DNA from: Betaproteobacteria bacterium Ga0077532
GTDB taxonomy: Bacteria; Pseudomonadota; Gammaproteobacteria; Burkholderiales; Ga0077523
Length of the DNA stretch: 64,000 bases
NCBI GenBank assembly: GCA_001464895.1
Contig: LNEE01000013.1
Coordinates: 1 to 64,000 of the forward strand
Reading direction: 5' to 3'
Under the pieces are notes generated by a model that did no database searches, had not been told where the DNA came from, and saw nothing but the letters and a program-made list of their open reading frames with translations. Made by a program: the position numbers and the translations under genes. Shown here in pieces: positions 34,548 through 36,499 of this stretch; within the stretch, counting starts at the first letter, position 1, and each line of letters begins with the position of its first letter.

Positions 34548-35129
34548 TCAGCCTTTGCGATCGGGGTCGGACGGGTCGTCTTGCGAGGCCCCGGTGGCGA
34601 AAGGTGAGAACGGGAACGTGGAGAACATGTTCCGCGCCTGTTTCTGCAGCTGCTGCTGCATTTCGACGAACGTATTGGCGCTTTGCTCGAGGTAGCTGCC
34701 CATGAGGCCCTGGATGGCGGGGCCCTGCATCTTCACGAACTGGTTCCAGGCATCGGACCCCACCACAGGGTTCTCGCCGAACTTGGCCAGCGACTGCTGC
34801 TGCAGCTTCCGCTGGATCTCCATGAATGTCTGAATGTTCTTCTCGAGGTACGAACCCATCATGCCCTGCATGGCATTACCGTAGAACCGGATGATCTGCG
34901 AGAGCATGTCGCTGGAGAACATCGGTGCGCCCGCGGTTTCCTCCTCCAGAATGATCTGCAAAAGGATGCTTCGGGTGAGATCGTCGCCCGACTTCGCGTC
35001 GAGGACCTTGAACTGCACCTGCTCCAGTACCAGCGCCTTCACGTCTGCCAGCGTGATGTAGCTGCTCGTTGCCGTGTCGTACAGCCGGCGGTTCGGATAC
35101 TTCTTGATCAGTCGAAGTTCTTCAGCCAT
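34548..35129 (-). CDS. phaR: PHA synthesis repressor PhaR
   Basis: PhaR represses phasin (phaP) and polymer genes and also binds PHB, so polymer accumulation relieves repression. The 193-residue protein has the PHB/PHA accumulation regulator DNA-binding domain at the N-terminus ([20 protein letters not shown], from residue 8), then two similar helical segments including [20 protein letters not shown] and [20 protein letters not shown]. The duplication of that segment is visible by eye. ATG 35129 has GAGGGATCC immediately upstream; the longer frame to 35516 crosses the candidate ncRNA. It is separated from phaB by 626 bases. Confidence 0.95.
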
Positions 35130-35258
35130 GGATCCCTCGTAGCGGCGACATTGTGGAGGAGGCCTGCCGCGAGCCGGATGACGAGCGGTTCCCGCCTCGA
35201 TGTTATGGGGTCGCTCGCGGACTCTAGCGGAATCATGGTGCGACGCGCAAAAAAATCG

Positions 35259-35287
35259 TTGACAGTGAATTCGGGCACGCCTAGCAT
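35259..35287 (+). promoter_or_regulatory. Strong sigma-70-like promoter on the plus strand upstream of phaR
   Basis: TTGACA (35259-35264) is a perfect -35, and TAGCAT (35282-35287) is 17 bases downstream as -10. Transcription would start near 35294. It faces away from phaR and leads into the 380-base hairpin-rich region that ends at a terminator. An 8-base palindrome GTTGCAAC follows at 35298-35305. Confidence 0.6.
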
Positions 35288-35293
35288 CTAAGT

Positions 35294-35676
35294 TATGCGT
35301 TGCAACAAGACGCGCTCGATACGCTAGATGTAAGGAAAGATTACTTCGGTGTATCATTGGTTTGTGTGGGAAAGCTTGATTCGGTCTCAATGGCGCAGCG
35401 AACAAGATTGCTGCGCGGGTCTCGAGGTGGACCCCGCGGGAGGGCAGGCGACTCCCAGTGGTTTGAGGCGCAATTTCGGACACTGCAGGAATGGCCGCCA
35501 GTAATAAATGCGGCACAGAATTCGGCCAGACGAAGACTCGAGGTCTTCGCGAGATGGGTGGCCCGGTGGGTTGCTGACGCAGCCTCCAGAAGGGTCTCCC
35601 GGCCAGACGGCTCCTCCCCCTTTATCGCAAGATAAAGGTTCAACCCCGGCGGGTTCACCCACCGGGGTTTTTTTTT
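35294..35676 (+). ncRNA. Candidate structured non-coding RNA between phaR and phaB
   Basis: A plus-strand transcription unit is framed by a sigma-70-like promoter and an intrinsic terminator. In between lie many small hairpins: GCGCAGC/GCTGCGC (35393-35416), GGGTC/GACCC (35417-35434), TGGCCG/CGGCCA (35492-35528), CGAAGAC/GTCTTCG around TCGAG (35531-35549) and CCTTTATC-GCAA-GATAAAGG (35619-35638), a perfect stem with a GNRA tetraloop. I find none of the landmark sequences of RNase P RNA, tmRNA, SRP RNA or 6S RNA. A 111-codon frame starting TTG 35300 runs through it but stops inside the last hairpin and has no clear protein family. If phaC-phaB transcription reads through to phaR, this RNA is antisense to it. 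Confidence 0.55.
35643..35676 (+). terminator. Strong intrinsic terminator of candidate ncRNA
   Basis: ACCCCGG, a mismatch, GGG, loop TTCA, CCC, a mismatch, CCGGGGT, then nine T in a row (35668-35676). The T tract lies on the plus strand only. It therefore ends plus-strand transcripts arriving from phaR's side and not phaB, whose own end shows only the T-less hairpin around 35722-35742. Confidence 0.85.
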
Positions 35677-35755: not shown

Positions 35756-36499
35756 TCAGGACATGTGCTGACCACCGTTGATCGAGATGTTCGCCCCGGT
35801 CAGGAAGGCCGCTTCATCCGATGCCAGATAGATGATCAGGCCGGCGACTTCCTCCGGTTTCCCAAGGCGACCAACCGGGATCTGCGGGATGATCTTCGTG
35901 TCGAGAATGTCCTTCGGAATGGCCGTCACCATCTTGGTACCGATGTAGCCGGGCGAGATCGTGTTGACGGTCACCCCCTTCTTGGCCACTTCGAGGGCGA
36001 GAGCCTTCGTGAAGCCATGCATGCCAGCCTTCGCCGCCGAGTAGTTGGTCTGACCGAAGGCACCCTTCTGGCCGTTCACCGACGAGATGTTGATGACGCG
36101 ACCCCAGCCGCGATCGACCATGCCGTCCATGACCTGCTTAGTCATGTTGAAGCAGCTGTCGAGGTTCGTGCGGATCACGGCATCCCAGTCCGCCTTGCCC
36201 ATCTTCTTGAAGGTCATGTCGCGCGTGATGCCGGCGTTGTTCACGAGCACATCGACCGCGCCGACCTCCGCCGTCACCTTCGCGACCGCGGCTGCGGCCG
36301 AATCGAAATCCGTCACGTCGCAAGGCACCGCGTGGAAGTCGTAGCCCTTGGCCTTCATGGCCGTGACCCACGCATCGGCGGTCTTGTTGCTCGGTGAGTA
36401 GGTGGCGACCACGGTGTATCCCTGATCCGCCATGCCCGTGCAGATGGGTTCTCCAAGTCCGCCCATTCCTCCCGTCACGAGTACCACGCGCTTTGGCAT
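35756..36499 (-). CDS. phaB: Acetoacetyl-CoA reductase PhaB
   Basis: PhaB reduces acetoacetyl-CoA to (R)-3-hydroxybutyryl-CoA with NADPH, giving the monomer for PHB. The 247-residue short-chain dehydrogenase has the cofactor loop VTGGMGGLGEPI, the NNAG motif (VDVLVNNAGITRDM) and the catalytic YxxxK in NYSAAKAGMHGFTKAL. The C-terminus ends GGQHMS, close to well-known PhaB. GGAG precedes the ATG. phaC lies 14 bases upstream in the same operon; no phaA thiolase is present in the cluster. Confidence 0.97.
   Translation of the reverse strand: MPKRVVLVTGGMGGLGEPICTGMADQGYTVVATYSPSNKTADAWVTAMKAKGYDFHAVPCDVTDFDSAAAAVAKVTAEVGAVDVLVNNAGITRDMTFKKMGKADWDAVIRTNLDSCFNMTKQVMDGMVDRGWGRVINISSVNGQKGAFGQTNYSAAKAGMHGFTKALALEVAKKGVTVNTISPGYIGTKMVTAIPKDILDTKIIPQIPVGRLGKPEEVAGLIIYLASDEAAFLTGANISINGGQHMS

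Follow-up and report, generated by a model that had tools for sequence, protein, structure and literature searches.

The locus between phaR and phaB in the window, a stretch of 64,000 nucleotides from Betaproteobacteria bacterium Ga0077532, is probably a PhaR-repressed, PHB-induced phasin unit that lacks its open reading frame and has kept its promoter, its operator and a small RNA of the 3′ UTR type. Sequence comparison gives us high confidence in the phasin ancestry and the structure of the locus. With more reserve, we favor the broader view that the locus belongs to a new family of PhaR-controlled, PHB-responsive sRNAs that were born as phasin 3′ UTRs and repeatedly freed by ORF loss, a coding gene having become a stand-alone RNA gene several times independently within one bacterial order.

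The window-locus unit extends from promoter to terminator at positions 35259-35676, between the phaR start at about 35130 and the phaB stop near 35756. The original prediction of a sigma-70 promoter and a strong terminator with nine T on the plus strand was accurate in every detail: the −35 element TTGACA (35259-35264) is separated by a 17 nt spacer from the −10 element TAGCAT (35282-35287), and the terminator (35642-35676) consists of the hairpin AACCCCGGCGGGUUCACCCACCGGGGUU with nine T after it. The flanking genes lie on the opposite strand, as had been noted, and the product of phaR is a likely candidate for the regulator of the adjoining RNA unit. The features are as follows.

34548..35130, minus strand: phaR, PHA synthesis repressor, divergent neighbor (TIGR01848, 176 bits, cut-off 109)
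35259..35287, plus strand: sigma-70-type promoter, TTGACA-17-TAGCAT, kept in phaR-adjacent relatives
35296..35307, plus strand: PhaR operator-like dyad TGCGTTGCAACA, overlapping the putative start site and matching the published consensus
35308..35604, plus strand: unconserved filler at the position of the relatives' phasin ORF, as judged from divergence, HMM and folding
35609..35618, plus strand: anti-Shine-Dalgarno-like unpaired stretch GGCUCCUCCC, with UCCUCC in 49/49 aligned loci
35619..35638, plus strand: hairpin 1, CCUUUAUC-GCAA-GAUAAAGG, two-sided changes in 8/8 pairs
35642..35676, plus strand: hairpin 2, the intrinsic terminator with U9, two-sided changes in 8/10 pairs
35756..36499 (start approximate), minus strand: phaB, acetoacetyl-CoA reductase, convergent neighbor (TIGR01829, 377 bits, cut-off 302)

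The conserved RNA comprises only the last ~72 nt of the locus (35605-35676), in which an unpaired, anti-Shine-Dalgarno-like CUCCUCCC is followed by a hairpin with a GNRA cap and then by the terminator hairpin. In the predicted fold GGCUCCUCCC is unpaired, CCUUUAUC and GAUAAAGG form a stem closed by the GNRA loop, and the terminator stem precedes nine U. The whole 384 nt has a folding z-score of −3.1 relative to shuffles, a signal that is due to the 3′ 72-81 nt (z of −4.3 to −5.2); folding z-scores gave structure in the 5′ 311 nt no useful margin over shuffles (−1.9 overall, −1.0 and −0.6 for its two halves). The original prediction of a long non-coding RNA with five short hairpins therefore holds in part. 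There is a plus-strand RNA gene outside Rfam, and the stem with the GCAA tetraloop (35619-35638) and the terminator are conserved, but the remaining hairpins are not, and structure and conservation are confined to the last ~72 nt.

A nucleotide search of 60 relatives located the element in every one of the 11 congeners as well as in two further families, with the match limited to the last ~70 nt in all but one close relative. When 300 genomes of the order were searched with a covariance model (R1) derived from 15 loci, 58 contained matches at E ≤ 1e-4. Compensatory changes in homologues, which the original prediction had named as a check, are abundant: in an alignment of 49 phasin- or phaR-linked loci, two-sided changes occur in 16 of the 18 pairs, pairing is kept in 97% of cells, and there are 42 further pair types. 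The covariation score of these 49 loci was 0.557, as compared with 0.160 ± 0.012 after shuffling and ≤ 0.125 with the partner slid, although covariation in an alignment fitted to a covariance model leans towards the modelled structure. We nonetheless take the core structure to be real, in view of the low scores with slid partners and the variety of pair types.

Comparison with the closest relative gives 23-43% mismatch and a 17-column gap for the middle of the transcript, against 16-24% mismatch at four-fold degenerate positions in phaR, phaB and rimO and 8% in the core. By this measure the middle ~300 nt diverges no more slowly than four-fold codon sites, and we regard it as filler where relatives have a phasin ORF. 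The window locus itself has no such ORF, PF09361 and the phasin HMM being unmatched, and neither these profiles nor nucleotide comparison revealed a phasin remnant in it. It is hardly credible that the plus strand codes for a small protein. A 111-aa open frame does exist at 35300-35635, but it has no Pfam match and the gap in the closest relative falls mid-frame; together with the high mismatch, this ruled out a conserved small protein in the window. A ~36-nt block with a 9-bp stem (35385-35424) is nearly identical in the closest relative amid diverging surroundings, and is absent from the other species' loci fetched.

In relatives, the core RNA serves as the 3′ UTR of a gene for a phasin (PF09361). 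Four congeners (L007, L008, L011, L012) and a locus from another family (L013) carry an ORF of ~180 aa between promoter and core, and this ORF is a phasin, with PF09361 E-values of 1e-12 to 1e-16 in those scanned and the others recognized by a phasin profile. Of the 71 model matches across the order, 32 follow a phasin ORF in sense at a distance of 0-130 nt, which is far beyond chance since genomes within the genus contain only one to three phasins. Every R1 match of at least 46 bits is at a phasin or at phaR. Because five phasin-linked cores (L048, L056, L058, L060, L075) are located away from phaR, the link of the core is to phasins and not to the phaR locus alone. A class-level search gave matches in 25 of 369 genomes, mostly with weak scores of 34-44 bits; among the class-level loci fetched, L153, outside the order, is the only one that also lies beside a phasin and phaR. 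At L058 (1880-2170), the phasin-linked core is beside a 6S RNA match, and a cobalamin riboswitch match occurs further along the locus.

Seventeen loci beside phaR, the window locus and 16 others, are orphans that keep the core and promoter and have no phasin; UCCUCC is retained in all 49 aligned loci, these 17 included. On a PhaR tree of 41 loci, phasin presence or absence accounts for 9 changes, at least 6 of them forced by well-supported branches, versus an average of 13 changes for shuffled labels. Loss of the phasin ORF is favored over gain because the phasin link is order-wide, remnant codons persist in one orphan and a second locus carries an apparently broken phasin; some gains are compatible with parsimony alone. 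In the orphan L041, the last ~10 codons of the phasin of its sister, L046, are kept up to the core (82% identity over 39 nt). We interpret this as a direct trace of gene loss, in which the phasin end and stop are kept and the gene body is gone. The L031 phasin, at about −537 to −19 before the core, is apparently broken by a frameshift, and its split ORF reflects either gene decay or an error in sequencing. Redundancy may have permitted ORF loss, since six orphan congener genomes hold two phasins each elsewhere. The same two phasin kinds are found, along with a phaR-linked phasin, in G007, G008 and G009, and neither of the two phasins left in the window genome (C24, C51) has the core. In compact orphans (L053, L043, L055, L054, L039), the −35 element is just 65-104 nt ahead of the core, i.e. 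the predicted product is a stand-alone RNA of about 110-160 nt, and these loci consist of promoter, operator and RNA and nothing more. A compact form is also carried by the chromosome of Betaproteobacteria bacterium GR16-43 (CP019169, L122).

The promoter match alone is not above chance, with 1 found and 0.6 ± 0.7 expected in 3 kb; it is significant because it is conserved together with an operator in relatives. Among the 41 phaR-adjacent loci, 40 have a sigma-70-type promoter with TGCNNNGCA, the operator-like dyad TGCN3GCA, 7-13 nt (mostly 8) past its −10 element. A stricter promoter and operator rule still recovered 38 of the 41, versus 0.03 expected from dinucleotide shuffles. The dyad is present in 16 of 17 orphans and missing from L044. 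At 11 of 12 positions, the window dyad TGCGTTGCAACA agrees with the published consensus TGCRNYGCASMA, which comes from Bradyrhizobium, where it was footprinted as the PhaR site (PMC6201568). The same palindrome is found in S. meliloti, the promoter of the mmgR sRNA included (PMC12542648), and PhaR strongly binds an oligonucleotide with GGTGCGCCGCAACAATT from Ralstonia eutropha phaP1 (PMC3570403). The two phasins elsewhere in the window genome share this promoter-operator arrangement. Because the arrangement at the window locus matches published PhaR sites, the RNA is predicted to be repressed by PhaR and made on PHB accumulation, and we consider PhaR control very likely. Loci such as L053, L043, L054 and L055 have a further TGCNNNGCA dyad ~57 nt upstream of the first, flanking the promoter, and the pair suggests two PhaR sites.

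The PHB-control link that had been suggested for this locus is thus supported by the PhaR operator at the start site and by phasin ancestry, but its antisense basis is not. As originally conceived, a ~380-nt antisense RNA would control phaB-phaR read-through, and the RNA does lie opposite any phaB-phaR co-transcript. However, the portion opposite the spacer is mostly unconserved, conservation being found in the anti-Shine-Dalgarno stretch and the hairpins, and the core follows phasins elsewhere in genomes, at loci that are not between phaB and phaR. The promoter also points away from phaR, and the terminator ends ~80 nt before the phaB stop. We consider antisense control highly improbable.

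The core could instead be solely a cis-acting 3′ UTR element or terminator of phasin mRNA, with the window copy dead, kept by chance or merely stopping transcription. Most intact cases do sit in phasin 3′ UTRs, and the window terminator faces the phaB 3′ end. But for a terminator alone the CU stretch and hairpin 1 would both be dispensable, and yet they are kept in 17 of 17 orphans; the orphans also keep the promoter and, in 16 of 17, the PhaR operator, while the sequence between changes freely, and in compact orphans the promoter is almost directly ahead of the core. On balance a purely cis-acting role is unlikely as an account of the locus. Retention of promoter and RNA tail after loss of the coding part suggests that the RNA has a regulatory job of its own.

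We propose that the ancestral state was a phasin gene divergent from phaR, transcribed from a PhaR-repressed sigma-70 promoter and ending in a 3′ UTR with a CUCCUCC single strand, hairpin 1, the terminator hairpin and a U-tail. In the lineage of the window the phasin ORF would have been lost and the promoter, operator and RNA module retained, giving a ~380-nt non-coding RNA with a working part formed by its last ~72 nt. Without PHB, PhaR would occupy the operator and block transcription; as PHB granules form they would titrate PhaR and the RNA would be made. The exposed CUCCUCC should be able to pair with Shine-Dalgarno sequences because it resembles the 3′ end of 16S rRNA, and pairing with these regions of target mRNAs would lower their translation. 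In view of the U-tail, an Hfq-like chaperone is probably involved. Given this pairing ability and the analogy to double-hairpin RNAs, a trans-acting, RBS-blocking small RNA is the likeliest mechanism, and one in which we place reasonable confidence; in species that have the phasin, it may work in cis. When the anti-Shine-Dalgarno stretch was scanned against 218 crudely predicted gene starts of a single genome, no convincing target emerged, and the genome's own phasin with the sole correctly called start ranked 194 of 218.

If this model is correct, an RNA that travels with the phasin mRNA signals PHB storage status in many Betaproteobacteria-type genomes. It would also fill a gap named in a 2021 review, according to which the role of riboregulation in PHB synthesis by Cupriavidus necator, the main model, is undeciphered (PMC8401924). 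Repeated loss of the ORF with the RNA kept is a natural experiment that separates the protein of an mRNA from its 3′ UTR RNA, and allows a direct test of how sRNA genes arise from mRNA tails.

In comparison with known RNAs, no Rfam family reaches its gathering score at the window locus, consistent with the original prediction. At gathering and relaxed thresholds, Rfam gave only sub-threshold, terminator-like matches there, the best being anti-hemB (25 bits) and Betaproteobacteria toxic sRNA (22 bits), at the 3′ end only. The latter family, RF02278, includes the double-hairpin RNAs ncS03, ncS05, ncS27 and ncS62 of Burkholderia cenocepacia (PMC5688073, PMC4603805). These are the closest known RNAs and share with the window RNA the core length, the two hairpins, the second being the terminator, and a CU-rich unpaired stretch complementary to the RBS; they are predicted to pair with Shine-Dalgarno sequences, and overexpression of ncS27 slows growth (PMC5688073). 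The window RNA follows the RF02278 plan of CU-rich single strand, short hairpin and intrinsic terminator hairpin, and the lower-scoring matches of model R1 include members of RF02278. Ordinary membership in the family is nonetheless doubtful. The window locus scores 22 bits (E 0.049) against a gathering score of 50 bits, the other scanned phasin- or phaR-linked loci are also below the cut-off, and genuine RF02278 matches (L062, L067, L074, L076) adjoin neither a phasin nor phaR. The window-type RNA differs further in its longer AU-rich hairpin 1 and its ties to phasin 3′ UTRs and the PhaR operator, and the cited passages report no B. cenocepacia member beside phaR or phasins. Since the cut-off is unmet we do not file the RNA under RF02278, and the phasin-linked RNAs and RF02278 may form one clan. 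At L061 (G185), two double-hairpin RNAs lie close together (2039-2110 and 2912-2984) with no phasin found upstream of either, in a genome with five model R2 matches. The window genome (G000) has weak matches at C34:41390-41460 (L083, 27 bits) and C16:75237-75321 (L084, 19 bits), which contain CUCCUCCCCC and hairpins and are possible distant double-hairpin RNAs.

Enterobacterial 3′ UTR-derived sRNAs such as CpxQ are modules at mRNA 3′ ends that share the terminator of the mRNA and carry a single-stranded seed. The RNA described here appears to be an sRNA of this 3′ UTR type, and what is new is the link to phasins and PhaR and the repeated release from a coding gene: in contrast to CpxQ-type sRNAs, its parent ORF is gone from several lineages that have kept the promoter and the RNA. 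We found no report of a phasin 3′ UTR sRNA in open-licence papers. The R. eutropha phaP1 promoter has the same TGCN3GCA-ACA motif but drives a phasin rather than a non-coding RNA (PMC3570403). MmgR of Sinorhizobium meliloti is likewise an sRNA that is repressed through a PhaR (AniA) site in its promoter and acts in PHB storage (PMC12542648, PMC8401924). It is alphaproteobacterial, has a gene of its own and down-regulates phasins, whereas the window genome's own phasin was not a favored target in our scan. In function, MmgR is the closest counterpart of the RNA at this locus.
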